From positions 186,001-250,000 of the forward strand of contig NZ_JACOGF010000004.1 of assembly GCF_014284335.1 (NCBI RefSeq): a stretch of DNA of 64,000 bases, written 5' to 3'. A program made the position numbers and the translations under genes. This document shows positions 2,873 to 58,063 of the stretch, in pieces. Source of the stretch: Undibacterium hunanense. Lineage in GTDB: Bacteria; Pseudomonadota; Gammaproteobacteria; Burkholderiales; Burkholderiaceae_D. The notes under the pieces were generated by a model. That model was not told the origin of the DNA and did no database searches. It was given only the letters and a program-made list of their open reading frames with translations. How positions within the stretch are numbered: position 1 is the stretch's first letter; each line of letters starts with the position of its first letter.

Positions 2873-3960
2873 GCCAATTCGTCCAAAAAATGCCCAAGAA
2901 ATTATTGATCATGGCAGCCGGCACCGGTGGACATATTTTCCCCGGTCTGGCGATTGCCGACATCATGCGCGAGCGTGGCTGGCAAGTCAGCTGGCTGGGC
3001 ACGCAAATCGGCATGGAAGGGCAGATAGTCCCCAAGCACAATATCGCCATGGACAATATTGATTTCTCTGGCCTGCGTGGCAAGGGTTTGTCGCATACGG
3101 TCAGTGGTGCTTTCAAGCTGGTCAAGAGCTTCTTTAGCTGCTTTGGCATCATCGGTCGTCGCCAGCCGGATGTGGTATTGGGCATGGGCGGCTATGTCAC
3201 GGTACCTGGCGGCATCATGGCCGCCTTGCGTGGCAAGCCTGTAGTCCTGATGAATGCTGACGCCGCTTTGCTGTTGTCGAACAAGGCATTGCGTCCTTTC
3301 GCCAGTAAATTACTGTTTGGACTGCCATCAGCAACAGTGACTGCAGATCAAAAAACAGAAGTGATAGGCAACCCGATACGTAAAGAAATTTGCGAATTGC
3401 CGGTACCGGCAATTCGCTATGCAGCACGCACCGGCCCTTTGCGCATACTGGTAGTGGGGGGCAGCCTGGGTGCCAAAGTATTGAATGATGCAGTACCGCA
3501 AGCACTGGCCTTGTTGCCAGAAGCCCAGCGTCCAGTGATAACACATCAGTCTGGCAAACAGCATATAGAAGCCTTGCGCCAGAGTTATGCGCAGGCAGGT
3601 GTACAGGCTGAGGTACTGGATTTTATTGACGACATGCCACGCCGTTATGCCGAAGCAGATCTGGTGATATGCCGTGCCGGTGCGATCACCGTATCTGAAT
3701 TAACGGCCGCCGGCGTGGCCAGCATGCTCGTGCCTTTCATGGCGTCGAGTACTTCGCACCAAAAAGAAAACGCCATTTGGATGGCAGGGCAGAAAGCCGC
3801 CATCCATTTGCCACAAACTGAATTGAGTCCAGCCTTGCTGGCAGAGAAATTAAAAGTACTGGACAGAGCGCAATGCCTGGCGATGGCTGAAACAGCCTAC
3901 GCCCTGGGGCAGCGCGAAGCCAGTGCCAATATCGCCCATATTCTGGAAGCATTAGCATGA
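2869..3960 (+). CDS. murG: UDP-GlcNAc--lipid I GlcNAc transferase
   Basis: MurG transfers GlcNAc from UDP-GlcNAc to lipid I, making lipid II on the inner face of the cytoplasmic membrane. It is 363 residues, normal for the GT28 family. The N-terminal glycine-rich loop [16 protein letters not shown] lies near residues 16-31. The C-terminal UDP-sugar domain has [12 protein letters not shown] and the [15 protein letters not shown] region. It starts at the ATGA overlap with ftsW and overlaps murC by 4 bases, so the four mur/fts genes form one tightly coupled block. Confidence 0.97.
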
Positions 3961-5342
3961 AACACAAAGTCAAACACATCCATTTTGTAGGCATAGGCGG
4001 CTCAGGCATGAGCGGTATCGCCGAAGTCTTGCTGAACCTTGGTTATACCATTTCCGGTTCTGATCTTGGCAGCAATGCTGCATCGAAACGTCTGGCACAA
4101 TTGGGTGCCAAGGTGATGCTGGGTCATACGGCGGACAATATTGACGGTGCAGATGCCGTCGTTACCTCGACCGCAGTCAAGGGTGACAATCCGGAAGTTA
4201 TCGCTGCGCGTGCCAAACATATCCCCATCGTGCCACGTGCAATGATGCTGGCCGAGCTCATGCGTCTGAAAAGCGGTATCGCCATTGCCGGCACCCATGG
4301 CAAAACTACGACCACCAGTCTGGTGGCCAGTGTGTTGGCACAGGGTGGACTTGATCCTACTTTCGTGATTGGCGGTTTGCTTAATAGTGCCGGTGCCAAT
4401 GCCAAACTGGGCAGCGGTGATTTCATCGTTGCCGAAGCGGATGAATCAGATGCTTCTTTCCTGAACCTGCTGCCGGTGATAGAAGTCATCACCAATATCG
4501 ATGCCGACCATATGGAAACCTATGGCCATGACTTCGCCCGTCTGAAGCAGGCATTCATAGAATTTACCCAGCGCCTGCCATTTTATGGTGTGGCCGTTTT
4601 GTGCCTGGACGATGCGAATGTGCGTGAAATCATGCCTTTCGTCTCCAAACCTATTGTCACTTACGGCTTTCATGAAGATGCCGATGTGCGTGCTGTCGAT
4701 GCTACGGCGTCTGGCGGCAAGATGCATTTCACAGTCGTGCAAGATGGCTATGAGAATATGCAAGTCAGCCTGAACCAGCCTGGTATGCACAATGTACAAA
4801 ATGCCTGCGCCGCGATAGCGATTGCGCGTGAAGTTGGCGTCAGTGACGAAGCGACACAAAAAGCCCTGAGTGATTTCAACGGGGTCGGGCGCCGTTTTAC
4901 CCGTTATGGCGAAATCGCATTGGCCAATGGCGGTACTTTTGCCCTGGTGGATGATTATGGTCACCATCCGGTGGAAATGGCAGCAACGCTGGCAGCGGCA
5001 CGTGGTGCCTACCCCGGCCGCAGACTGGTGCTGGCTTTCCAGCCACATCGCTATACCCGTACCCGCGATCTGTTTGAAGATTTTGTGCGCGTGATTTCTG
5101 ATGCGGATGCAGTGGTGCTGGCAGAAGTGTATGCGGCAGGTGAAGCGCCGATACTGGCGGCGGATGGCCGTTCCCTGTCCCGTGCCCTGCGCGTTATGGG
5201 AAAGGTAGAGCCGGTATTTGTCGAAGATATGCAAGAAATGCCCGATAGTATTCTGCGGGTATTGAAAGACGGCGATGTGGTCATCGTCATGGGTGCGGGT
5301 TCCATTAACGCTGTGCCAGCAAAACTGGCACAGCCGGTATGA
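3957..5342 (+). CDS. murC: UDP-N-acetylmuramate--L-alanine ligase
   Basis: MurC attaches the first amino acid, L-alanine, to UDP-MurNAc. The 461-residue length is typical. The Rossmann loop GIGGSGMSG lies at about residues 12-20 and the ATP loop GTHGKTTTT at 112-120. The C-terminal domain has DDYGHHP and FQPHRYTRT, both conserved in MurC. The ATG lies inside the murG stop region (4-base overlap). The next gene, ddl, starts 22 bases downstream. Confidence 0.97.
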
Positions 5343-5364
5343 AAAACTAAATGATCAAAATATC

Positions 5365-6327
5365 ATGAGCGAATTGAATGTGAAATCACTGGGGAAAGTA
5401 GGCGTGCTGTTTGGTGGCCGTTCGGCCGAGCGCGAAATTTCCATTATGTCCGGCACCGGCGTATTGCAAGCTCTGTTAAGTAAAGGGGTTGATGCCCATC
5501 CGTTTGATACGGCCGAGCGCAGCATTGCGGAACTGGCAGCAGAAAAATTTGACCGCGTATTTATCGCCCTGCATGGCCGTTATGGTGAAGATGGCAGCCT
5601 GCAAGGTGTGCTGGAACAATTAAACATTCCCTATACCGGCAGTGGCGTAATGGCGTCAGCTGTTGCCATGGACAAGATATTTACCAAACGTATCTGGCAA
5701 ACCCATGGTCTGGCGACCCCTGCTTATGCGGTACTGACAGCGGAAACAGAATTGCGCCGCGTACCTGATGAACTGGGTCTGCCACTTATCATCAAGCCGC
5801 CACATGAAGGCTCTACCATAGGCATTACCAAGGTCAAAGGCTATTCCGACATGCAGGAAGCCTATGCCCTGGCAGCGCAGTTTGATGAAGTGGTACTGGC
5901 AGAAGAATTTGTCGAAGGCCGTGAACTGACCGTGGCGATATTGGGCAAGGGCAGGCAGGCATATGCCTTGCCAATTACCGAGATCGTTGCGCCGGAAGGC
6001 AATTACGATTACCAGAACAAGTATTTTACGGATGACACCAAATATTTGTGCCCGGCACCACTGGACCAGGCGCTGACGGATGAGATACGCAAAATGGCAG
6101 TGGATGCCTATCTGTCACTGGATTGCGAAGGCTGGGCACGGGTTGACGTGTTGTTGCGCAAATCGGATAACAAGCCTTTCCTGCTGGAGATCAATACATC
6201 GCCAGGTATGACCGGCCATTCGCTGGTGCCGATGGCGGCAAAGGCAGTAGGAATGAGTTACGAAGATTTATGTGTAGAGATTTTGAGAACGGCGAGTCTG
6301 AAAATCAGATCTGAAGTGAAAAAGTAA
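5365..6327 (+). CDS. ddl: D-alanine--D-alanine ligase
   Basis: Ddl is an ATP-grasp ligase that joins two D-alanines for the peptidoglycan pentapeptide. The 320-residue product opens with [14 protein letters not shown], has the substrate loop around [12 protein letters not shown], and ends with the metal-binding [15 protein letters not shown] longer in-frame ORF runs back into murC, but [11 protein letters not shown] at 5365 gives the family length. Alr, which makes the D-alanine, is encoded elsewhere in this window at 22.6 kb in an apparently catabolic setting. Confidence 0.95.
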
Positions 6328-17210: not shown

Positions 17211-17996
17211 CTAAGGCAGATTACCCTGTAAGTCACGCACCAGTTGCAATAACTTTGGGCGTACCTCATGCAATAGAAATTCCTTGCTCAGCAAGAAGGC
17301 CGGGCCACCGCAGTTAATGGCCACCGGTGCCTGCCCGGCACCTGGTGAAAAGGCGATGGCGATGGCATTCACATCTGTTTGCCAGTCGCCGAAAGAACTG
17401 CAGCAAGCAAATTCCCTGACCTCTTGCAGGCTGCGCTGTATGCCGGCTTCCAGATCTGGCCATTGCTCGTCCTGTGTAGTACGAATTTCAGTCAATACAA
17501 CTTCGCGTTCAATAGCCGGCAGGCTGGCCAGCAATGCCCGCCCCATGGCAGTAGTCGCAAGCGGGATGCGCGAACCTACATCCAGGCTCAGGGTCAACGC
17601 ATTCTGGCTGCGACAGTTTTCTATATAAATCATGCTGAGTCTGTCACGCATGCCTAGCGACACCATTCCTCTGGAAAAATCTGCCAGTTCCTGCATCAGG
17701 GGTCGTGCCAGTTGCCGTACGTCGAGCCGCGCAATCATGGCACTGCCCAGCGCCAGGGTGGCTGACCCCAGGCGATATTGTCCCTGGCTGGCGATGTAAT
17801 GCAGATAGCCCAGTTTGGTCAGGGTATAGGTCAGGCGCGATACCGTGGACTTGGGTAACTGACAGCGCTGGGCAATTTCCTGATTGCCCAATGCCTTGTC
17901 GCCAGGACGAAAACAGGCCAGCACATCGAGCCCGCGTGCCAGTGCGGTAACGAAGTGACGATCTTCCTTCATCGTGCCATGGTGGGTGTCATCCAT
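17211..17996 (-). CDS. IclR family transcriptional regulator
   Basis: A 261-residue regulator with an N-terminal winged helix (about residues 15-75: SLARGLDVLAC-type helix, then CQLPKSTVSRLTYTLTKLGYL) and a C-terminal effector-binding IclR domain (about 90-255) with AMGRALLASLP. It is transcribed away from an acyl-CoA dehydrogenase gene. The 197-base shared intergenic region contains a perfect palindrome. The arrangement suggests it controls that dehydrogenase, and perhaps itself, in response to an acid or CoA-pathway metabolite. The effector is unknown. A second in-frame Met lies 8 codons in. Confidence 0.9.
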   Translation of the reverse strand: MDDTHHGTMKEDRHFVTALARGLDVLACFRPGDKALGNQEIAQRCQLPKSTVSRLTYTLTKLGYLHYIASQGQYRLGSATLALGSAMIARLDVRQLARPLMQELADFSRGMVSLGMRDRLSMIYIENCRSQNALTLSLDVGSRIPLATTAMGRALLASLPAIEREVVLTEIRTTQDEQWPDLEAGIQRSLQEVREFACCSSFGDWQTDVNAIAIAFSPGAGQAPVAINCGGPAFLLSKEFLLHEVRPKLLQLVRDLQGNLP

Positions 17997-20750: not shown

Positions 20751-21620
20751 ATGACCCAGCTCGACCAATTTTTATCCCGTGCAGAACACTTGCTGACCCG
20801 GCTGGAAGGTTTGCTACCCGCTGCTTCACCCGTGCCTGACTGGCAATTGGGCCATGCATTTCGCTGGCGCAAACGTGGTGGGCAGGGCTATCTGCAAGTG
20901 GTGCGTCATGTGTCAGACATTGCGCTGGATGACTTGTGTCATGTCACCATTCAGAAAGCCCAGATAGAACAGAATACCCGCCAGTTTGTGCATGGCAAAC
21001 CCGCCAACAATGTCTTGTTGACGGGCGCGCGCGGTACCGGCAAATCGTCTCTGATCAAAGCCTGCCTGAACCAGTTTGCTGACCAGGGTTTGCGTCTGAT
21101 CGAAGTCGATAAAACCGATCTGGCGGATTTGCACGATATCGTTGATCTGATCGCTGAACGGCCAGAACGCTTCATCGTTTTTTGTGACGACCTGTCGTTT
21201 GAAGAAGGTGAGGCCGGTTACAAGGCTTTGAAAGTGGCGCTCGATGGCAGTATTGCCGCGCAATCGGACAATGTACTAATCTATGCCACATCCAACCGCC
21301 GCCATCTCTTGCCGGAGAAAATGTCCGATAACGCCAGTTATAAATATAGCGACGATGGCGATTTGCATCCGGGTGAAACGGTAGAAGAAAAAATTTCCCT
21401 GTCTGAACGCTTTGGTTTGTGGGTGTCGTTCTACCCCTTCAAGCAGGATGATTATCTGGATATCGTCGCCCACTGGCTGACGACCATGGGATGCACTGCT
21501 GCACAAATCAATGAAGCACGCGGCGACGCTCTGCGCTGGGCATTGCAGCGTGGTTCACGTTCTGGTCGCGTCGCCTGGCAATTTGCGCGCGATTATGCTG
21601 GCCGCATGACGGAGTCCTGA
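20751..21620 (+). CDS. DUF815 AAA+ ATPase
   Basis: A 289-residue protein of the DUF815 family. The Walker A loop GARGTGKSS lies at residues 92-100, and the acidic FIVFCDDLSF is the probable Walker B at about 144-153. A sensor-like YATSNRRHLLPEKM follows. The fold is AAA+; the biological role of the family is not established. It is 23 bases after argJ and one base before the mutT ATG, so the three genes are probably one transcript. Confidence 0.88.
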   Translation: MTQLDQFLSRAEHLLTRLEGLLPAASPVPDWQLGHAFRWRKRGGQGYLQVVRHVSDIALDDLCHVTIQKAQIEQNTRQFVHGKPANNVLLTGARGTGKSSLIKACLNQFADQGLRLIEVDKTDLADLHDIVDLIAERPERFIVFCDDLSFEEGEAGYKALKVALDGSIAAQSDNVLIYATSNRRHLLPEKMSDNASYKYSDDGDLHPGETVEEKISLSERFGLWVSFYPFKQDDYLDIVAHWLTTMGCTAAQINEARGDALRWALQRGSRSGRVAWQFARDYAGRMTES

Positions 21621-21621
21621 T

Positions 21622-22026
21622 ATGACGGCAAAACCTGTAGATGTCGCCGTCGGCATATTAATGAAAGCCAATGGTGATGTCTTGCTGGGCCAGCGCCCCG
21701 CTGGCAAACCTTATGAAGGTTACTGGGAATTCCCGGGTGGCAAGGTCGAGGCAGACGAATCCATACTGGCCGCGCTAAAGCGTGAATTTGTGGAAGAGCT
21801 GGGTATACAGATCGTTTCTGCCGAGCCCTGGTGTGGTGTCGAACATATTTACCCGCATGCCCACGTCAGGCTGCATTTTTATATCAGCCGTGAATGGCAG
21901 GGCGAACCACAAAGCCTGGAAGGCCAGGCCTTTGCCTGGCAGGGCAGTGTTGCCGTCACACCCTTGTTACCTGCCACCATCCCTCTGCTGGAATGGCTGG
22001 ACCTGTTGCGCAGCGAGCCTGCCTGA
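21622..22026 (+). CDS. mutT: NUDIX hydrolase, MutT-like
   Basis: This is probably an 8-oxo-dGTP pyrophosphatase that cleans the nucleotide pool. The 134-residue length suits MutT. The complete NUDIX box G-x5-E-x7-REUxEExGU runs from G40 to I62, and the preceding GYWEFPGG is typical of true MutT. It starts one base after the DUF815 stop and is the last gene of the argJ cluster. A GC-rich hairpin follows. Confidence 0.9.
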   Translation: MTAKPVDVAVGILMKANGDVLLGQRPAGKPYEGYWEFPGGKVEADESILAALKREFVEELGIQIVSAEPWCGVEHIYPHAHVRLHFYISREWQGEPQSLEGQAFAWQGSVAVTPLLPATIPLLEWLDLLRSEPA

Positions 22027-22040
22027 GTGAGTGTTACCTA

Positions 22041-22066
22041 CAGGCCCCGATTGCGGGCCTGCTTTT
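22041..22066 (+). terminator. Probable terminator after mutT
   Basis: CAGGCCC pairs with GGGCCTG around a 7-base loop and is followed by CTTTTCG, a short T-run. It begins 15 bases after the mutT stop. Confidence 0.6.
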
Positions 22067-22069
22067 CGT

Positions 22070-22368
22070 TGTTTTCTTCCGCTCCCCCGTCGCTCTTTTT
22101 CACTTTATTGCACCATTTCTTTGCCAGCACCTGCATGGTATGGCGCACAGTCTGCGTCTGCTCTCCCTGTTTGCAGGTGTAAACCCTGGTATCGACGCTC
22201 ATGCCGATGACCCTGACCCCAATTTACTGATTTATTTGCTGAAAGCTTTTCCTGGTGGCAATTTTAGCTTGATGCAGACTGTCTTTTTATGACAAGCAAT
22301 CCGTAGTATCACTTATTGTCCTAAGCATTAGTCGCTGAGATTATCTGTGCTTTATTTTATATCTGGAC
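22070..22368. other. Intergenic stretch, no gene recognised
   Basis: Between the mutT hairpin and the alr regulatory region I see no ORF with family resemblance, no RNA gene and no clear repeat. Base composition shifts to AT-rich from about 22270 onward, where the alr control region begins. Confidence 0.5.
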
Positions 22369-22408
22369 TGTATCTAAAACAATACACTGTATTCAAAAAT
22401 GTACAGTG
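22369..22408. promoter_or_regulatory. Two TyrR-box-like palindromes upstream of alr
   Basis: TGTATC-N6-AATACA at 22369-22386, and TGTATT-N6-TGTACA at 22388-22405 (with CAC/GTG flanks extending its symmetry to 22385-22408). Both have the 18-base layout of the TyrR box, TGTAAA-N6-TTTACA. They start 19 bases apart, about two helical turns, and lie some 170-205 bases before the predicted start of transcription. This is an enhancer-like position for a sigma-54 activator. Confidence 0.65.
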
Positions 22409-22470
22409 TTCGATTTTCAGTACGCTATAGAGCGTGAATGCCTCTCAAAAAGAGCAAGAAAATCAGTGGG

Positions 22471-22488
22471 TGTATCGTTTTAAATACA
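22471..22488. promoter_or_regulatory. Third TyrR-box-like palindrome upstream of alr
   Basis: TGTATC-GTTTTA-AATACA repeats the half-sites of the first box exactly, with a different 6-base spacer. It is centred about 97 bases upstream of the predicted sigma-54 start site. Three matching sites in 120 bases is hard to explain by chance, even in AT-rich sequence. Confidence 0.65.
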
Positions 22489-22549
22489 GTTTTTTTGCTG
22501 CTGCCGAAATAAATTTTATAAGTCGTTGAATTTCTTCAATAAAATTTTG

Positions 22550-22565
22550 TGGCATGACGATTGCT
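22550..22565 (+). promoter_or_regulatory. Sigma-54 promoter of alr-dadA
   Basis: TGGCATGACGATTGCT matches 11 of the 12 defined positions of the sigma-54 consensus TGGCACG-N4-TTGCW, with the invariant GG and GC exactly 10 bases apart. Transcription should start near 22576, 33 bases before the alr ATG. Three enhancer-like palindromes lie upstream, and a GAFTGA-type activator is encoded 3 kb downstream. Confidence 0.8.
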
Positions 22566-22572
22566 ATAACTA

Positions 22573-22595
22573 ATCGCATGATTCATGCATGCGAT
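22573..22595 (+). promoter_or_regulatory. Hairpin at the alr 5' end
   Basis: ATCGCATG pairs perfectly with CATGCGAT around ATTCATG, directly before the GGAGTGG ribosome site of alr. Depending on the exact transcription start it would form at the 5' end of the message or overlap the initial transcribed DNA. Function unknown. Confidence 0.4.
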
Positions 22596-22608
22596 GGAGT
22601 GGTGAAAA

Positions 22609-23721
22609 ATGAGGCAAGTTGCTGGAAGAGCAGGTGCAGTACTTCGTATTGATTTAAAAGCAATACGTTATAACTATCGCCTTTTGCAGGGTTTGTTGGG
22701 TAAGGCGAAATGTGGGGCCGCAGTCAAGGCAGATGCTTATGGCCTAGGTGCCATACCGGTGGTGCAGGCACTGTATGCAGAAGAATGTCGCGATTTTTTT
22801 GTCGCCCATCTGGAAGAGGGTATTGCCTTGCGCCAGCACTTACCCGCCGATGCTGCAATCTATATCATGCATGGCGCACCTGTGGGGTATGACGCTGAAT
22901 TGCTGGAACATAATTGTATCCCCGTCCTGAACAGCCTGCCGCAAATCCTGGCATGGCGCGATCTGGCCAGGCAACAGCAGCGCCGTCTGCCTGCCATTGT
23001 GCAATTCGATACCGGCATGGCCAGAATGGGCTTGTCCGATGCTGAAGTCGGTCTCTGGCAAGATGATGCCGGTTTGACCGATGGTATCGATCTGCTTTAT
23101 GCCATGAGTCACCTCGTCAGCGCCGAAGACCAGTCCAGTCCGGTCAATCATCAACAATTACAGCGCTTCAATGACTTGCGCGAACGCATACCTGCATGCC
23201 AGGGCTTGCCTGCCAGCCTGGCAAATTCATCCGGCATTTTCCTTGGTTCCGATTTTCATTTTAAGCTTGCACGTCCGGGGGCTGCCCTGTATGGCGTGGC
23301 ACCGGTAGCCGGGCAGGCCAATCCCATGCGGGCGGTTGCTCATTTGCAGGGCAGCATCATCCAGACCCGCGAAATTCCTGCCGGTACCGGCGTGGGCTAT
23401 GGTGCCAGCTGGCGCAGCAGCCAGACCAGTCGCATTGCGACCGTTGCTGTCGGCTATGCCGATGGCTGGATGCGCAGTCTCAGCAATCGCGGCATCGCCC
23501 ATATTGCAGGCCAGGCAGTGCCCATGGTCGGCAATGTCTCCATGGACACTATTACCCTGGATGTGAGCACTGTGGCCGCTGAACACTTGCTGCCAGGCAC
23601 GCTGGTTGACTTGATATCTGCCGACAATACGGTAGATCAGGTGGCAGCCAGGGCTGGCACGATAGGCTACGAGATATTGACTAGCCTGGGGGCCCGCTAC
23701 GAGCGCACTTACAGCGATTAA
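22609..23721 (+). CDS. alr: Alanine racemase (probably catabolic)
   Basis: This PLP enzyme interconverts L- and D-alanine. The 370-residue product has the PLP lysine K40 in AAVKADAYGLG and the opposing catalytic tyrosine Y264 in GVGYGASW. It is followed by dadA, which oxidises D-alanine, so the pair funnels L-alanine to pyruvate. A DadX-like catabolic role fits better than cell-wall supply, though it could do both if it is the only racemase. The ATG at 22609 has GGAGTGG upstream. Control by sigma-54 is predicted. Confidence 0.94.
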   Translation: MRQVAGRAGAVLRIDLKAIRYNYRLLQGLLGKAKCGAAVKADAYGLGAIPVVQALYAEECRDFFVAHLEEGIALRQHLPADAAIYIMHGAPVGYDAELLEHNCIPVLNSLPQILAWRDLARQQQRRLPAIVQFDTGMARMGLSDAEVGLWQDDAGLTDGIDLLYAMSHLVSAEDQSSPVNHQQLQRFNDLRERIPACQGLPASLANSSGIFLGSDFHFKLARPGAALYGVAPVAGQANPMRAVAHLQGSIIQTREIPAGTGVGYGASWRSSQTSRIATVAVGYADGWMRSLSNRGIAHIAGQAVPMVGNVSMDTITLDVSTVAAEHLLPGTLVDLISADNTVDQVAARAGTIGYEILTSLGARYERTYSD

Positions 23722-23770
23722 GTTCACATCTGCCCGGTGCTGGCGGTAAAAAAACAATAGCCGGGTAAAT

Positions 23771-23803
23771 AGCAGAATATAAGCAGAATATAAGCAGAAT
23801 ATA
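23771..23803 (+). repeat. Three tandem 11-bp repeats between alr and dadA
   Basis: AGCAGAATATA is repeated three times without gaps at 23771, 23782 and 23793, followed by a degenerate AATAAGAGAATATAAAT. The run lies in the 125-base alr-dadA spacer just before the dadA ribosome site. The 11-base period is close to one DNA turn. Confidence 0.8.
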
Positions 23804-23846
23804 AATAAGAGAATATAAATAGCAGGATCAAAATAGGAGAGGCAGC

Positions 23847-25139
23847 ATGAAAGTAGTGATATTGGGGGCAGGTGTCATAGGAACGGCGTCAGCCTATTAC
23901 CTGGCCAGGGCCGGGCATGAGGTGACGGTGATAGAGCGCCAGCCGGCAGCGGGGCTGGAAACCAGTTATGCCAATGCCGGTGAAGTGTCACCCGGTTATT
24001 CTGCCCCATGGGCTGGCCCGGGTGTTCCCCTGAAGGCCATCAAATGGCTGATGATGCAGCATAGCCCACTGGCGATACGGCCCAGCCTTGACCCCAGCAT
24101 GTGGCGCTGGGTTACGCAAATGCTGATGAACTGCACCACCAAACGCTACGAGATCAATAAGGGACGCATGCTGCGTATGGCAGAATACAGCCGTGACGTC
24201 TTGCAGCAATTGCGCAGCGATACCGGCATCAGCTATGACGAACGGACCCAGGGCACGTTGCAACTGTTCCGCAATCAGCAGCAACTTGATGGTGCCGAGG
24301 CAGATATTGCCATTCTTAAACGCTATGATGTCCCGTATGAAACACTGGACAAGGCAGGCTGCCTGAAAGTCGAACCGGCACTGGCGAATGTGCAGGAGAA
24401 ATTTGTAGGTGCCTTGCGTTTGCCCGGCGATGAAACAGGTGACTGCTTCAAGTTCACCCAAAATTTATCGAAGCTGGCACAAGAACTCGGTGTGCAGTTC
24501 AAATACGGCGTCAGCATACAAAGACTGGTTAAAAGTGGCGATACCATCAGTTCCGTCATCACCTCGGAAGGAGAGATCAAGGCCGATAGTTTCGTACTGG
24601 CCCTGGGCAGCTATTCACCGATTCTGTTGAAAGAACTGGATATCCGGATCCCGGTCTACCCCATCAAGGGTTATTCCATCACCGTGCCTATCACCGATGC
24701 GCACAAGGCACCAGAATCCACCGTCATGGATGAAACCTACAAAGTCGCGATCACCCGCCTGGGTGACCGCATACGTGTAGGTGGTACTGCAGAAATCACG
24801 GGCTATAACCTGGACCTGCGTGCTGAGCGTCGCGCCACGCTGGAACATTCAGTGACTGATCTGTTCCCCGGTGGCGGTGATGTCGCCAAGGCAGAATTCT
24901 GGACTGGCCTGCGCCCGATGACACCGGATGGTACGCCGGTGATAGGCCCGACTCCTTACCGTAATCTGTATCTGAACACTGGCCACGGCACCCTGGGCTG
25001 GACCATGGCCTGCGGTTCCGGTCAGTTTATTGCAGACATTGTTTCTGGCAAACGACCTGCCATTTCGACCGAAGGTTTATTCATGGACCGTTATGGCAGT
25101 GCGAATCGTCCTATTTTTGTTACCAAGGAGCTGGCATGA
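23847..25139 (+). CDS. dadA: D-amino-acid dehydrogenase, small subunit
   Basis: DadA is a membrane-associated flavoprotein that oxidises D-alanine and other D-amino acids to 2-oxo acids and ammonia, feeding electrons to the respiratory chain. The 430-residue length matches the family. The FAD-binding [14 protein letters not shown] is at the N-terminus, followed by [19 protein letters not shown], typical of Dad[16 protein letters not shown] and [16 protein letters not shown] form the C-terminal FAD site. It has an AGGAGAGG ribosome site and overlaps the next gene by 4 bases. Confidence 0.96.
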
Positions 25140-25726
25140 ATCAATTTGAAGAATTACTTTCATCGACTCAGGTTTTTTCTGATGCCAACCTGAATGCGCG
25201 CTTTTATACGGCGATAGAATTGCTGGCGCAAATCATGATGGTGATGCCGCGTACTGCAAATATCACCACACTGGCCCAGGCCACTGGCAAAACTCCACGC
25301 CTGATCCGTTCCATCCTGGCAACATTGAACAAGGATGATCTGGTCAGCCGCGACGCCAAGGAAAAAGATGCCTGGCATTGTCGTGATTGCAACGGCATCA
25401 TTACCCTGGCAGATGTGTATCGCTGTTTTGTCATGGCAGAGGAAAAGGCGGCAGCCAAGGCCATAGAAAAACAGGCGCAGGATCAGACAAAAGCACAGGC
25501 CCAGCAGGCACAAGAGACGGAAATGCAGCATGAAAGACGCATTACCCGTACTTCCAGCCAGCAAAGTGTTGATCTGCTGATGATGCAAGTTAAAATGACG
25601 CTCAATCGTGCAGTTTTGCAGCAACTTGAGCAATTTGACCTGGGCCGCTTGCGTGGCCTAGCATCGAACAGCTCATTCCGCCGCCAGCATGCGCGTCCGC
25701 GCGGATATATTCCAGAACCCTTTTAA
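25136..25726 (+). CDS. Rrf2-like winged-helix protein
   Basis: A 196-residue protein. The first 100 residues resemble an Rrf2-type regulator: [16 protein letters not shown], then [28 protein letters not shown], then [11 protein letters not shown] CxxC (CRDC) lies near residue 84, but not the three-cysteine cluster of Fe-S Rrf2 proteins. A Lys/Gln/Ala-rich helix (about 103-135) and a basic tail follow. Its ATG lies inside the dadA stop, so it is translationally coupled to a catabolic gene. It may be a local feedback regulator. Target and signal are unknown. Confidence 0.65.
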
Positions 25727-25768
25727 ACCAATACCACCTTCAGCTCACGTCAGGTCCATTCTTCCAGC

Positions 25769-27328
25769 ATGCGCATTAATATACAGTTCAAGGACCGTGT
25801 CGGTATTGCCCATGAAATCCTGGCGGTGCTGGCGCGTCGCGGCCTGAATGTGGTGGCGGTGGAAGTGGATCCGCCGCATATTTATATCGACAGTCCGGAA
25901 CTGCTGGATTTCATGCTGCCATCCCTGCAGGCAGACTGTCAGCAGGTACGGGGTGTCGGTGACATCAAGGTGCTGGATGTCTTGCCCGGCATACGGCGAC
26001 GCCTGAATCTCGATACCATGATGGCTGTTATGGAAGACCCGGTGCTGGCTATTGATGCAGGCGGACATATCGTGATCGCCAATGCGGCTGCAGCCACAGC
26101 AGTCCGCTTGTCAGAAGCCGAGCTATGCCAGCGCAACCTGAACCAGGTGCTGGACGATACCGGTATCCTGGAAGAGCTGCTGACCAGCGGTTTTCGTCTG
26201 CCCAGCCGTGAAGTCATACTCAATGGCGAACCTTTTTTCATGGATGTCACGCCTGTATCCGAACCCCAGGGTATGGATATTGCCCAGCATGGCCGCTCAG
26301 TGGGCGCAGTGCTGACCTTTCATGCACCGACACGCATAGGTGGCCGCCTGCATGCATTGCAACATTCTGAAGGTAGTGGCTTTCATTTCATTATCGGTGA
26401 ATCCGAGCAGATACGCGCCCTGAAGACGCGGGCTGCCAGGGTTGCCGTGGTCGATGCCCCCCTGCTGATTACCGGCGAGACTGGCACCGGCAAAGAATTG
26501 CTGGCGCAGGCCTGTCATGGTGTCAGTGGTCGCAGCAATGCGCCTTTCCTGGAATTGAATTGTGCTGCCTTGCCAGAAAGCCTGGCTGAAAGCGAATTGT
26601 TTGGCTACACCTCGGGCGCCTTTACCGGCGCCCAGCGTGGTGGCAAACCAGGCCTGTTTGAAATGGCGGATGGTGGCACCGTATTTCTCGATGAAATCGG
26701 TGAAATGTCGCTGTATTTGCAAGCCAAACTGCTGCGCTTTCTCAACGATGGTAAATTCCGCCGTATAGGCAGCGACAAGGAAGTCAGGGTGAATGTGCGC
26801 ATCATCAGCGCCACCCACCGTAATCTGCGCAAGATGGTGCAGGAGGGCAGTTTCCGCGAAGACTTGTTTTACCGCCTGAACGTACTGCATCTGGAAATGC
26901 CGGCCTTGCGCGAGCGTCCTGACGATATCCTGCCTCTGGCCAGGCATTTTATCGAACGTGCCTGCACCCAGGCGCAAAAGCCCGTTTGCCGCCTTAACTC
27001 GGCAGCCTGCGCTGCGCTGGTGTCAAATCACTGGCCAGGTAATGTCCGGCAATTGCAGAATGTCGTGTTCAGGGCGATTACCATGTCAGATCAGCGTGTG
27101 CTGGATGCGGCAGACCTGGATTGGGCAGAAGGCAGCATTACTGCCGACGTGGTGAAAAGTGACGTGACCGAGAGTTGGGAAGATTCGGTGAATGCGTTTG
27201 AGCGCAGTCTTCTGGAATCCATGTATCCGCAATATCCGTCCAGCCGCAAGCTGGCGATGCGATTGGCTACCTCGCATTCCATGATCGCCACCAAATTACG
27301 TAAATACGGTATTCCGCAAAAGCGCTAG
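25769..27328 (+). CDS. TyrR/PhhR-like sigma-54-dependent activator
   Basis: A 519-residue regulator with TyrR architecture. An ACT-like amino-acid-binding domain (about 1-75: FKDRVGIAHEILAVLARRGLNVVAVEV) comes first, then PAS (about 80-185), AAA+ (about 205-435) and a Fis-type helix-turn-helix (about 475-519). Walker A GETGTGKE is at 236-243 and an intact GAFTGA loop at 283-288, so it should contact sigma-54 RNA polymerase, unlike E. coli TyrR, which lacks that loop. It follows the Rrf2-like gene by 42 bases. TyrR-box-like sites before alr are its natural targets, with an amino acid as likely ligand. Confidence 0.88.
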   Translation: MRINIQFKDRVGIAHEILAVLARRGLNVVAVEVDPPHIYIDSPELLDFMLPSLQADCQQVRGVGDIKVLDVLPGIRRRLNLDTMMAVMEDPVLAIDAGGHIVIANAAAATAVRLSEAELCQRNLNQVLDDTGILEELLTSGFRLPSREVILNGEPFFMDVTPVSEPQGMDIAQHGRSVGAVLTFHAPTRIGGRLHALQHSEGSGFHFIIGESEQIRALKTRAARVAVVDAPLLITGETGTGKELLAQACHGVSGRSNAPFLELNCAALPESLAESELFGYTSGAFTGAQRGGKPGLFEMADGGTVFLDEIGEMSLYLQAKLLRFLNDGKFRRIGSDKEVRVNVRIISATHRNLRKMVQEGSFREDLFYRLNVLHLEMPALRERPDDILPLARHFIERACTQAQKPVCRLNSAACAALVSNHWPGNVRQLQNVVFRAITMSDQRVLDAADLDWAEGSITADVVKSDVTESWEDSVNAFERSLLESMYPQYPSSRKLAMRLATSHSMIATKLRKYGIPQKR

Positions 27329-27365
27329 TCCTGATAGATGGGGATAGCCTCTTAAGGAGCTGGTC

Positions 27366-27542
27366 TTATTGCGTCAGGTCAGGATCTTCAGGCAGATTGA
27401 CGGCAGGTATCGTATATTTTTCTTCCGCCCAGGCACCCAGATCAATCTGCTTGCAGCGTTCAGAACAAAATGGACGCCAGCGGTTCGCTTCTTTCCATTC
27501 CACCTTGTTTTTACAGGTGGGACAGTCAACAAAAGTGGCCAT
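27366..27542 (-). CDS. yacG: DNA gyrase inhibitor YacG (small zinc protein)
   Basis: A 58-residue [21 protein letters not shown] at its start and [13 protein letters not shown] in the middle. The four cysteines (CPTC and CSERC) form the zinc-binding site of YacG, which binds GyrB and inhibits gyrase in E. coli. It starts 2 bases after the zapD stop. The coaE-zapD-yacG order is the standard proteobacterial arrangement. Small and easily overlooked, but the motif and synteny make it secure. Confidence 0.93.
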
Positions 27543-27544
27543 AG

Positions 27545-28300
27545 TTAAAAATTACAGAGAGTCAGGTCAAACGGGATATCGTTTTCGAAAGCCTTGGGCT
27601 TCATGTCACCATCCTGTGACATATAACGTATCCACAACATATATTTATTTGCAGAAATTTCAGGAATGGCTCCCAGTTCCTGCGCCACACTGACGCGCAG
27701 CAACTGGTACACCTTGCCCTGCAACATTTGCTGGTAACTGCCAGCCTGGGCGATCACTTTTGAGGTGGAGCCAGATTCGCGCAACAGGCGCAGGACTACA
27801 TTAATGGCACCAAACAAGGGAGCAATCGGAGCAAACCAGGCACTGATGTCAGAATAACGTTTTTCGGGTGAATTTTTTTGCCATGCGTGATAGCTGGGCA
27901 AATCAAACTCGCAGGCACCACCCGGAATAATGGTGCGGCCACGTATGCTCATCAGCCATTCATTATCGCGCACGTTCTGACCGGTTTTACCGGTGCTGGC
28001 AACCAGGGCCGTGCTGGCGCGATCGACATCGTCCAGAACCTTGTCGAGCATGTCGGCCTGTACATTCGGATTGGACTTGAAACTGATGAGAGTGTGTTTC
28101 TGTCTTTCGAGTTCTTGCAAGAGATCGGATTTGAGGTCGGCACGACCAGCGACTTCCAGCATTTCGAAAATGGTGGCAAGGGCAACGTGATGCTGCATGG
28201 GGTCAGACTGATGCAGGAAAAATGTGAATTTTTCGTATAAGTCTTCCAGCCGCAATAACGTGCGAATACGCTCGTTAAAAGGGTATTCGTAAACAATCAA
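27545..28300 (-). CDS. zapD: Cell division protein ZapD
   Basis: ZapD (YacF) cross-links FtsZ filaments and stabilises the Z-ring. The 251-residue product starts [25 protein letters not shown] and contains [21 protein letters not shown], both diagnostic for the family. It lies between coaE (137-base gap) and yacG. Its partner FtsZ is encoded at 8.5 kb in this window. Confidence 0.94.
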
Positions 28301-52320: not shown

Positions 52321-53670
52321 ATGACAGGCTTGCTGGCTATATTAATAGAGGATGAACAGGCAGTGCGCCTGGCAACCACACAGACGCTGGAGCTCGGTGG
52401 TTTCGAAGTGACTGCCTGCGCCAGTGCCGAACTGGCTGATCAATACCTGAAAGCAGACTTTGCCGGCATCATCGTCACCGATGTGCGCCTGCCGGGAAAA
52501 TCTGGTCTGGATGTACTCGAAAAAGTCCGGGCCATCGACCATGAATTGCCGGTCATTATCATTACCGGCCATGGCGATGTCAGTATGGCGGTCGACGCGA
52601 TGCGCCATGGTGCCTATGATTTCCTGGAAAAGCCGTTTGCCGCCGAACGCCTGCTGGATGCCTGCTTGCGGGCTCAGGAGAAACGTCGCCTGGTCATGGA
52701 AAACCGCAAGCTGAAATCATCCTGGCTCAGCCATGCCAGCACGCCCGACCTGATAGGTAAGAGCGCCCAGATGGAGCGGGTACGCAAGTTCATTCACAGC
52801 ATAGGTCCGGCCCAGGTAGATGTGCTGATTAATGGTGCTACCGGTTCCGGCAAGGAAGTGGTGGCGCGGCAACTGCATCTGGCCAGTGGTCGCAAGGGCG
52901 AATTTGTCGCCATTAATTGCGGGGCTTTGCCTGAAGCTGTATTTGAAAGCGAAATCTTTGGCCATGAAGCCGGTGCTTTTACCAGTGCCCAGAAACGCCG
53001 CATAGGCAAACTGGAATATGCGCACGGGGGTACGGTATTTCTTGATGAAATTGAAAGTATGCCGCTGAACCTGCAAATCAAATTACTGCGTGTCTTGCAG
53101 GAGCGCAGCCTGGAAAGATTGGGTGGTAATCAATCGGTGGCACTGGATTGTCGCGTGATTGCTGCCAGCAAGACCGATTTGCTGAAGCTCAGTGCGCAAG
53201 GGCAATTCCGCGAAGACCTGTATTTCCGTCTGAGTGTCATCAGCATCAATCTGCCCAGGCTGAATGAGAGACGCGAAGATATTCCCTCGCTGCTGTCGTA
53301 TTTTGTGCAAAGGGCAGCACAGCGCTACCAAAAACCGGTACCCGGCTGGTCACCAGCACAGATGCAGCACTGGATGCAGGCCGACTGGCAGGGGAATGTA
53401 CGTGAATTGCGCAATTTTGCCGATCAACTGGTGCTGGGTGTAGCCGAATTTGCCGATCAGCGCTTTCATCTTGACAGTGGCCCGGATAGCACGGCCACCA
53501 GCCTGCCGGAAAGAATCGATGCCTATGAAGCCAGCCTGATACAGGCGGCATTGGAAAGCAGCGGCAACAATGTGGCAAGCGCTGCCGAGGCACTGGGTAT
53601 CCCCAAAAAGACCCTGTATGACAAAATGAAAAAATATCAAAAAACCTTGTCTAATCTGACTCCAACCTGA
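52321..53670 (+). CDS. DctD-like sigma-54 response regulator with GAFTSA loop
   Basis: A 449-residue regulator. The receiver (about 1-120) has the phospho-acceptor D54 in IIVTDVRLPGKSG and K104. The AAA+ domain (about 143-370) has Walker A NGATGSGKE at 171-179, and a Fis helix-turn-helix lies at the C-terminus (GNNVASAAEALGIPKKTLYDK). The sigma-54 contact loop reads GAFTSA (218-223) rather than GAFTGA. ATG at 52321 with AAGGAAAA upstream is chosen; the longer ORF overlaps the kinase. It is the partner of the DctB-like kinase 64 bases upstream. Confidence 0.87.
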   Translation: MTGLLAILIEDEQAVRLATTQTLELGGFEVTACASAELADQYLKADFAGIIVTDVRLPGKSGLDVLEKVRAIDHELPVIIITGHGDVSMAVDAMRHGAYDFLEKPFAAERLLDACLRAQEKRRLVMENRKLKSSWLSHASTPDLIGKSAQMERVRKFIHSIGPAQVDVLINGATGSGKEVVARQLHLASGRKGEFVAINCGALPEAVFESEIFGHEAGAFTSAQKRRIGKLEYAHGGTVFLDEIESMPLNLQIKLLRVLQERSLERLGGNQSVALDCRVIAASKTDLLKLSAQGQFREDLYFRLSVISINLPRLNERREDIPSLLSYFVQRAAQRYQKPVPGWSPAQMQHWMQADWQGNVRELRNFADQLVLGVAEFADQRFHLDSGPDSTATSLPERIDAYEASLIQAALESSGNNVASAAEALGIPKKTLYDKMKKYQKTLSNLTPT

Positions 53671-56621: not shown

Positions 56622-58063
56622 GTATGAATGATGTTGCGAGTTGCCCCCGCATCCTGGTTGTGGATGATGAGGCGCATCTGCGTGAATTACTGGAAATTAC
56701 GCTCATCAAAATGGGCCTGGATGTAGATAGCGCAGAAAACCTCGCCATCGCCCGGCAGCAACTGCTCAAACACAGTTATGCCCTGGTTCTGACTGACATG
56801 CGCCTGCCCGATGGATCGGGCATGGAACTGGTGCAGGAAGTCAGTACACTATATAAGAACACACCGATTGCCGTGATTACCGCTTTTGGCAGTGCCGACA
56901 ACGCCGTGGTTGCGCTCAAGGCCGGGGCTTTTGACTATGTGTCGAAGCCGGTGGCGCTGGATCAGTTACGCAAACTGGTCAGATCTGCCCTGCAAACCAA
57001 TGAAGTACAGAAAGAGCAGCAGGCAGCACCGGCAAAGCTGGCCAGTACTTTTAATTCTTTCCTCATCGGTCAGTCACAGGGCATGCAGGAAGTCCGCCTG
57101 CAGATCAGCCGCCTGGCACGCAGCATGGCTCCAGTCATCATTACCGGTGAATCGGGTAGTGGCAAGGAACTGGCTGCCAGAGAAATTCATACCATCAGCG
57201 CCCGCTCGGCCAAGCCCTTTGTTGCCGTGAACTGTGGTGCGATACCAGAAAATCTGATGGAAGCCGAGTTTTTCGGTTACCGCAAGGGGGCCTTCACCGG
57301 TGCTGCCGATGACCGCGACGGTTTCTTCCAAGCTGCCAACGGCGGTACCCTGATGCTGGATGAGGTGGCCGACCTGCCTTTGCCGATGCAGGTGAAGTTG
57401 TTGCGCGCCATACAGGAACGCCGCGTGCGCAAGGTTGGCGCCACCGTGGAAGAGGCAGTGGACGTGCGCATCATCAGCGCCACCCATCAGAATCTGGCGA
57501 TATGTGTCGAAGAAGGACGTTTCCGTCAGGATCTGTATTACCGCCTGAATGTCATCGAGCTGCATTTGCCGCCTTTGCGCGAGCGACTGGAAGACATCGT
57601 TGAACTTTCCTCCAGCATTTTGAAGAAACTCACCGGCACAGACATCACTATGTCATCACCGGCGATTGATGCCCTGATCAGCTACGATTTTCCCGGTAAT
57701 GTACGCGAGCTGGAAAACATACTTGAACGCGCCATCGCCTTTGCCAATGATGGCTGCATCGAGGTGGCCGACCTCGCACTGCGTGGTACCAGGAAACTGG
57801 CCGAGCCATTTTTGTTGCCCGTCTCAAACGTAGACGCTGTGGTTCACAGCCGTCCTGTGATGGATGCAGGTTTCCCGGCGGATGTATTTACTGCACCGGA
57901 TTTACCCTGCTCACTACCTGAGTATCTGGAAAATGTGGAACGCGAAATGATCAGGCGCGCCTTGAGCCAGACCAAGAACAATCGCACCCAGGCAGCAGAA
58001 TTGCTGGGCGTCAGTTTTCGGCAACTGCGCTACCAGATACAAAAATTGAAAATCCAGGAATAG
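56618..58063 (+). CDS. pilR: Type IV pilus sigma-54 response regulator PilR
   Basis: PilR activates sigma-54-dependent transcription of the major pilin gene, which is not in this window. The 481-residue product has a receiver with D60 (LVLTDMRLPDGSG), Walker A GESGSGKE, an intact GAFTGA at 224-229, and a C-terminal Fis domain (NNRTQAAELLGVSFRQLRYQIQKL). Comparison with the DctD-like protein 4 kb upstream highlights the altered loop there. Confidence 0.95.
   Translation: MSMNDVASCPRILVVDDEAHLRELLEITLIKMGLDVDSAENLAIARQQLLKHSYALVLTDMRLPDGSGMELVQEVSTLYKNTPIAVITAFGSADNAVVALKAGAFDYVSKPVALDQLRKLVRSALQTNEVQKEQQAAPAKLASTFNSFLIGQSQGMQEVRLQISRLARSMAPVIITGESGSGKELAAREIHTISARSAKPFVAVNCGAIPENLMEAEFFGYRKGAFTGAADDRDGFFQAANGGTLMLDEVADLPLPMQVKLLRAIQERRVRKVGATVEEAVDVRIISATHQNLAICVEEGRFRQDLYYRLNVIELHLPPLRERLEDIVELSSSILKKLTGTDITMSSPAIDALISYDFPGNVRELENILERAIAFANDGCIEVADLALRGTRKLAEPFLLPVSNVDAVVHSRPVMDAGFPADVFTAPDLPCSLPEYLENVEREMIRRALSQTKNNRTQAAELLGVSFRQLRYQIQKLKIQE

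Follow-up and report, generated by a model that had tools for sequence, protein, structure and literature searches.

By which regulator is alanine catabolism controlled in Undibacterium? The question is raised by a 64,000-nucleotide stretch of the Undibacterium hunanense genome (contig NZ_JACOGF010000004.1, positions 186,001 to 250,000; hereafter the window), in which the genes for alanine racemase (alr) and D-amino acid dehydrogenase (dadA) are followed by a third open reading frame (ORF), orf3, and by a gene for a TyrR-like protein. Control of dadAX by Lrp or DadR has been described, Lrp-type control in enteric bacteria and pseudomonads, whilst for the window an initial annotation, made from the DNA letters alone, had proposed control of alanine catabolism by sigma-54 and a TyrR-like activator. 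Our analysis supports this proposal: it is very probable, judged from sequence, that a GcsR-like sigma-54 activator of the TyrR family serves alanine catabolism through an alr-dadA-orf3-tyrR operon, given an activator gene with an intact GAFTGA loop in the same predicted operon, boxes and promoter that are conserved in the genus, and an RpoN DNA-binding domain that is matched in this genome and, in all, in 40 of the 42 genomes of the genus (all but G142 and the 56%-complete G134).

Boxes, predicted promoter and presumed activator gene at the alr locus

The region ahead of alr holds what the annotation had described: three exact 18-bp palindromes of the type TGTA-N10-TACA (boxes 1–3, Table 1), two of which (boxes 1 and 3) have the half-sites TGTATC/AATACA in common, and a sigma-54 site with 11 of 12 consensus positions that ends 43 bases before the ATG of alr (22609). 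A -24 GG and a -12 GC with correct spacing, upstream activator sites and rpoN in the genome are all present for the alr promoter. The boxes are not of the TGTAAA-N6-TTTACA type: 70 boxes give a consensus of the TGTATTGA type, in which positions 5 and 6 are T (0.81 and 0.65) and rarely A (0.08 and 0.06), the outer TGTA/TACA being fixed by the design of the search. The annotation lacked the tyrR-like gene of the same operon, a weak degenerate box and an IHF-like site (Table 1); the IHF consensus is WATCAANNNNTTR.

In 2000 dinucleotide shuffles of the 450 bp upstream of alr, exact boxes occurred at 0.011 per region, two or more boxes in 0.05% of cases and three boxes never, with sigma-54 sites of at most one mismatch at 0.0035. 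Across the 6.28 Mb genome there are 46 exact TGTA-N10-TACA sites as against 73 for the reversed control: the pattern is not enriched genome-wide, and it is therefore the clustering, position and conservation of the boxes that carry the argument. With 46 such sites in the genome, chance would bring three together inside 120 bp about 2e-5 times. The pattern TGGCAYG-N4-TTGCW is found 10 times on both strands together, and once for the reversed control.

We scored the 46 sites with a matrix built from the 70 boxes, all from other Undibacterium loci with the window left out: the three alr boxes rank 1, 1 and 4, and they alone combine a position outside ORFs of at least 100 codons (counted from stop to stop) with a sigma-54 site of no more than one mismatch at a distance of up to 350 bp. 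This combination is missing from the 43 remaining exact sites, degenerate boxes and sigma-70 targets lying outside the search. The best site away from alr (L188, 20.2 bits) has no sigma-54 site within 350 bp even at two mismatches, and only one such site outside ORFs (L184) has a sigma-54 site at that tolerance, with two mismatches. A wider regulon in this genome was rejected by this survey, for exact sites only. In eight other genomes of the genus we counted between one and six copies of the stricter pattern TGTAT-N8-ATACA; every one of these genomes has a copy or more at alr, and the three non-alr sites inspected lie inside long ORFs. A chance origin of boxes and promoter was rejected on the combined basis of shuffles, genome counts and the conservation described below.

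Table 1. Features of the alr locus (positions in the window; offsets are counted from the sigma-54 16-mer; column identities are means over 38 genus loci).
Feature	Position	Strand	Sequence or remarks
TyrR-type box 1	22369-22386		TGTATCTAAAACAATACA; offset -181; column identity 0.80
TyrR-type box 2	22388-22405		TGTATTCAAAAATGTACA; offset -162; 19 bp after box 1; column identity 0.75
Weak degenerate extra box, tentative	22407-22424		TGTTCGATTTTCAGTACG; offset -143; 19 bp after box 2
TyrR-type box 3	22471-22488		TGTATCGTTTTAAATACA; offset -79; column identity 0.83, highest of the boxes
IHF-like site	22519-22531	-	ATTCAACGACTTA; one mismatch to WATCAANNNNTTR
Sigma-54 -24/-12 promoter, predicted	22550-22565	+	TGGCATGACGATTGCT; 11/12 of TGGCACG-N4-TTGCW
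alr, alanine racemase	22609-23721	+	Pfam PF01168/PF00842; TIGR00492 229.9 bits (cut-off 168)
dadA, D-amino acid dehydrogenase	23847-25139	+	NF001933 704 bits (cut-off 383)
orf3, Rrf2-like winged-helix protein, predicted	25136-25726	+	start overlaps dadA stop (ATGA), 4 bases
tyrR-like gene, presumed operon activator	25769-27328	+	ACT-PAS-AAA+(GAFTGA)-HTH_50

The TyrR-like protein, whose gene is probably cotranscribed with alr-dadA, matches the Pfam families ACT (27.6 bits, cut-off 27), PAS (24.0, cut-off 22.6), Sigma54_activat (230.9) and HTH_50 (53.2). Its nearest named relatives, at 75-94% identity, come mostly from Undibacterium. Sigma-54 activator domain matches in the genome number ten including the tyrR-like gene, which is the only full-length match; two more AAA+ domains of this kind lie in the window at 52750-53559 and 57056-57778. 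The GAFTGA loop that contacts sigma-54 is intact in 37/37 genus proteins; it is replaced in Colwellia, and in four Vibrio-type proteins the surrounding motif was not matched by the pattern used.

For orf3, no Pfam or NCBIfam match was obtained at 1e-3. Its predicted kinship with Rrf2 proteins comes from its homologues, 22 of 23 aligned sequences matching PF02082 at E<=1 and one (L143) above the cut-off, and from a structural model of modest confidence (mean predicted local distance difference test score 67.5), for which a member of the Rrf2 family was the best match in the PDB (E 1.2e-4; query TM-score 0.36). Homologues near tyrR also occur in G095, in two Noviherbaspirillum loci and in G025. 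Between alr and dadA, an AT-rich short tandem repeat (AGCAGAATATA type, 23771-23819) was noted by eye.

The upstream neighbour of alr is a Nudix gene on the same strand, which ends at 22026 and is followed by a terminator-like hairpin at 22041-22061. This hairpin counts for little as evidence, because terminator-like matches are equally frequent in shuffles (7 in 21600-27700 against 6.1; promoter-like matches 5 against 5.8). An 8-bp inverted repeat (22573-22595) surrounds the presumed transcription start ahead of the ribosome site; as a conserved leader element it was rejected, a by-eye comparison of leaders finding it not generally conserved. Further away, a gene for an IclR-family regulator (17211-17996, minus strand; PcaR/PcaU/PobR-like, below cut-off) adjoins an acyl-CoA dehydrogenase gene.

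Conservation in Undibacterium and Lrp-type loci in the family

Our genus scan detected the regulator in 39 of 43 genomes and alr, fragments included, likewise in 39 of 43. Besides the window we compared 37 loci, 36 of them whole and one (L142) cut by a contig end; G009 was left out for its partial protein, and contig ends led to the omission of G139, G144 and one of the contigs of G142, its second. In the 36 whole loci and the window, alr, dadA and tyrR follow one another in that order on one strand, with orf3 between dadA and tyrR in 24 of 37 loci (window included) and undetectable in 13 of 37. Loss of the palindromes in close relatives had been named as grounds for dropping the proposal, and it is not seen: at least one exact box is present in 37/37 of the other genus loci and at least two in 23/37, accompanied in 36/37 by a sigma-54 site of no more than one mismatch (L141 has two mismatches). 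Linked tyrR, boxes and promoter occur together in 38/38 loci, and box 3 is in place in 37 of these. Mean column identity over the 38 loci amounts to 0.75-0.83 for the boxes and 0.87 for both the IHF-like and the sigma-54 site, as compared with 0.45-0.57 for the spacers.

The extra box is less constant: at its offset of +19 the mean matrix score over the 38 loci is the third highest, yet negative (-11.7), and its column identity of 0.57 is no better than that of the spacers; it is unrecognisable in 11 loci of the L124-L138 group and present in many other genus loci. The IHF-like site (minus strand, at most one mismatch, at most 60 nt from the promoter) is found in 37/38 loci, compared with 0.083 in mononucleotide shuffles; it is exact in 10/38 and mostly lies 48-51 bp after box 3. 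In 37 scored loci the distance from box 3 to the promoter falls into classes of 79-83 (25 loci), 90-92 (11) and 102 (1), which step by about one helical turn; the longer distances gain their extra length downstream of the IHF-like site, ahead of the promoter.

The contrast with Lrp-type control that the annotation had drawn is visible within the family. Among 116 family genomes, 20 have alr at E<=1e-40: five Undibacterium, two with linked tyrR (G095, G115) and 13 without tyrR. In the 13 tyrR-less loci the gene order is dadA-alr, and neither an exact box nor a sigma-54 site with at most one mismatch occurs within 450 bp before dadA (0/13); a 1-mismatch box occurs in L155 and a 2-mismatch sigma-54-like site in L152. 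A divergent ORF with an Lrp-like motif is present in 12 of the 13 (exception: L158), and all four such ORFs that we tested belong to Lrp/AsnC in Pfam. In the window, alr and dadA have no divergent Lrp/AsnC neighbour. Among the matches listed, the best in the genus to an Lrp-like protein of the family (L150) reach 45-49% identity; in this genome they lie on contig C32 and not on C54, with 4 of its 8 own matches covered.

Outside the genus, boxes and promoter stand before alr or dadA in 3/3 tyrR-bearing Noviherbaspirillum loci (L144, L148, L149), with only 1-mismatch boxes in L149. G095 (L143) has tyrR first, followed by alr and dadA; its boxes for the promoter ahead of alr lie at -182, -163 and -82. 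The same locus has one exact and one 1-mismatch box immediately before tyrR (1675-1711); these boxes suggest autoregulation in G095.

Proposed mechanism, competing explanations and further relatives

If control of the operon by its own sigma-54 activator is accepted, the elements could act together as follows. The genes alr-dadA-orf3-tyrR would be a single operon that sigma-54 RNA polymerase reads from the predicted -24/-12 site; the TyrR-family activator encoded by this operon would bind boxes 1, 2 and 3 and perhaps, weakly, the extra box. Alanine (L or D) would probably trigger binding or oligomerisation via the ACT-PAS part, DNA bending, possibly by IHF at its candidate site, would place the hexamer on the promoter through a loop, and the GAFTGA loop and the ATPase would open the promoter complex. 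As tyrR is the last gene, induction would therefore also raise the level of the activator, a positive feedback.

Several observations speak against this reading. The TyrR-like protein scores below the NCBIfam TyrR equivalog cut-off (NF008085: 485.8 vs 576), as do the five relatives tested. Strict sigma-54 control of alr would be odd for a sole racemase, the search for a second one reaching only to E 1e-40. Within the genus, L137 has one recognisable box and neither box 3 nor the IHF-like site, and box 1 or 2 is degraded or missing in L131, L132, L133 and L138. The helical-turn classes follow clades and may therefore represent two to three independent events, and the spacing differs in Noviherbaspirillum (-74/-73 for box 3 of L148/L149 and -149 for box 2 of L144); because of both, helical spacing serves as support for looping and not as its proof. 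The sigma-54 contact loop reads GAFSGA in L148 and GSFSGA in G025 (L146), the latter having boxes and a sigma-54 promoter before orf3-tyrR (3006-5621) with neither alr nor dadA in the locus. In G021 (L147) a tyrR-like gene has no dadA, alr, boxes or promoter nearby, and G100, from the Noviherbaspirillum group, has dadA-alr with an Lrp-like gene and no tyrR. G100 shares its genus code with tyrR-bearing Noviherbaspirillum, and therefore both kinds of control exist within one genus.

The same machinery could also respond to aromatic amino acids, in which case alanine catabolism would be one among the targets of an aromatic regulon. The protein does belong to the TyrR family, its ACT-PAS part aligns end to end with that of E. 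coli TyrR (2jhe), and several relatives bear, in JGI data, the name 'regulator of aroF, aroG, tyrA and aromatic amino acid transport'; against this, the tyrR-like gene is tied to alr-dadA, no other exact box of the genome lies outside ORFs near a sigma-54 site of at most one mismatch (degenerate boxes were not searched), gcvP flanks 13 of 17 Pseudomonas relatives, and relatives elsewhere adjoin alanine symporter genes. We therefore consider an aromatic signal improbable, and the gene context, which gives the aroF/aroG/tyrA names no support, suggests that such names are misleading for these proteins. Less probable still is that TyrR represses or fine-tunes a sigma-70 promoter and that the -24/-12 likeness is incidental. 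E. coli TyrR is indeed sigma-70 dependent and has lost the sigma-54 contact (PMC3162934), but the 37 Undibacterium proteins all retain GAFTGA, few elements are as well conserved as the -24/-12 site, the boxes begin 79-181 bp ahead of this site, and no sigma-70-like promoter match was found in 22062-22608.

That the palindromes bind another regulator, be it the Rrf2-like orf3 product or a different enhancer-binding protein, has just as little to recommend it. The genome does encode further sigma-54 activator domains and orf3 is a predicted DNA-binding protein of the operon itself, but exact boxes are kept in the 13 genus loci that lack a detectable orf3, are absent from the tyrR-less loci, and resemble GcsR promoters in type and spacing. 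We thus retain the operon's own TyrR-family activator as the protein that would act at these boxes, with alanine as its probable signal.

The resemblance to GcsR promoters emerged from the relatives of the regulator. The closest found in Pseudomonas are 55-59% identical, and gcvP (NCBIfam match at L030) lies in the fetched flank of 13 of 17 loci, as would be expected of GcsR. A loosened -24/-12 pattern (TGGC-N7-TTGCW) picked out a site in 13 of the 17 loci: L032 and 12 loci whose flank contains gcvP. In the mean over these loci, which come from related species of one genus, box half-sites score best at -82, -182 and -163. All three offsets exceed the 99% level of mononucleotide shuffles and match the alr layout to within three bases. 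Offsets -21 and -33 beside the promoter also exceed that level. Individual layouts vary (L028, -236/-217/-83; L038, -149/-130/-71; L174, -133/-81, before a pyruvate-oxidoreductase-like gene), and in L175 no box was found. For seven other relatives only -161 exceeds the 99% level, -83 and -182 ranking high but below it. Two further loci, from other families, adjoin alanine symporter genes. In L173 (2505-5568) dadA, a Na/Ala symporter gene and alr share a strand and run divergently from tyrR; the boxes there, at -162 and -81, are imperfect, and the -24/-12 site has one mismatch. In L172 (4234-5924) a Na/Ala symporter gene is preceded by exact boxes at -161 and -84, and L171 has boxes before an amino acid permease gene, both with a weak -24/-12 site that follows the loosened pattern only, the strict pattern with at most two mismatches not being found near the boxes. 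The regulator is present in at least 4 of 369 genomes in a class scan and at least 7 of 399 in an order scan, both of which may undercount, as three to four candidates were scored per genome.

These data suggest that the regulator is nearer to GcsR than to TyrR/PhhR. The closest Pseudomonas relatives found are for the most part linked to gcvP and thereby GcsR-like. Because the deep order of the protein tree (54 proteins) lacks resolution and the comparison was made with sequences other than PhhR, this preference draws on linkage and layout. A broader reading, to which we give even chances, is that a GcsR-like clade keeps one enhancer layout across beta- and gammaproteobacteria, in which two boxes lie 19 bp apart, the third follows after about 81 bp and the promoter after about another 81 bp, whilst its target genes are exchanged. 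Pseudomonas would have the glycine cleavage genes in this place and Undibacterium alr-dadA; other families would have dadA or genes for alanine symporters. The Undibacterium system would be alanine-sensing and self-amplifying, would replace Lrp/DadR, and would place a racemase that possibly also supplies D-alanine under sigma-54. Such a case raises the question of how a regulator changes its amino acid ligand while the DNA layout stays, and the layout in common with GcsR promoters offers a route to the targets of such activators.

Comparison with known systems

Among the open-access papers searched, none describes a TyrR/sigma-54-controlled alr-dadA operon in its title or first lines. The nearest system is GcsR of Pseudomonas aeruginosa PAO1, which activates the glycine cleavage operon gcs2 with RpoN from three 18-bp sites (PMC4894688). 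Both regulators have the TyrR-like ACT-PAS-AAA+-HTH architecture, an RpoN-dependent promoter (here predicted) and three 18-bp sites, and both regulator genes stand beside their targets in the catabolism of a non-aromatic amino acid (PMC4894688); the 13 Pseudomonas loci compared above add a layout close to that of alr. GcsR differs in its glycine cleavage target and linked genes, its glycine effector and its consensus TGTAACG-N4-CGTTCCG (PMC4894688), whereas here the linked genes are alr, dadA and orf3, with alr-dadA as target, the consensus is of the TGTATTGA type and the regulator gene stands at the operon end. A sigma-54 review lists both GcsR and PhhR (PMC8657755).

A precedent for dadA exists: Azospirillum brasilense Sp7 cannot express dadA without its TyrR, dadA mRNA being missing in a tyrR mutant, and this TyrR is needed for the regulation of D-alanine use (PMC6375630). 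The protein likewise has GAFTGA and its gene adjoins dadA, with three predicted boxes and a predicted -12/-24 site between the genes; the differences lie in the divergent arrangement of the tyrR/dadA pair and in the box consensus, and 'alr' is absent from the main text (PMC6375630). PhhR and TyrR of Pseudomonas and E. coli share the family and the outer half-sites TGTA/TACA but have aromatic targets, E. coli TyrR being without sigma-54 activation (PMC5343134, PMC3162934); the alr boxes do not fit their box, TGTAAA-N6-TTTACA. A regulon study of 196 genomes describes TyrR as conserved in gammaproteobacteria and absent in other classes, with aromatic targets (PMC5343134). For the TyrR of Shewanella, control over several pathways of amino acid degradation has been predicted, in a text that makes no mention of dadA (PMC3223726).

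With the Lrp/DadR-type dadAX loci, the Undibacterium operon shares the enzymes DadA and Alr. The family loci of that type differ from it in their Lrp/AsnC-like gene divergent from dadA, in their dadA-alr order and in the absence of an exact box and a close -24/-12 site. We thus see an apparent exchange of regulators inside one bacterial family, Lrp-type for sigma-54/TyrR-type, in which the one promoter described here would predict the control of alanine catabolism for a whole genus: the type of machinery is already known, but here it appears to occupy the place of the Lrp-type control of its relatives.

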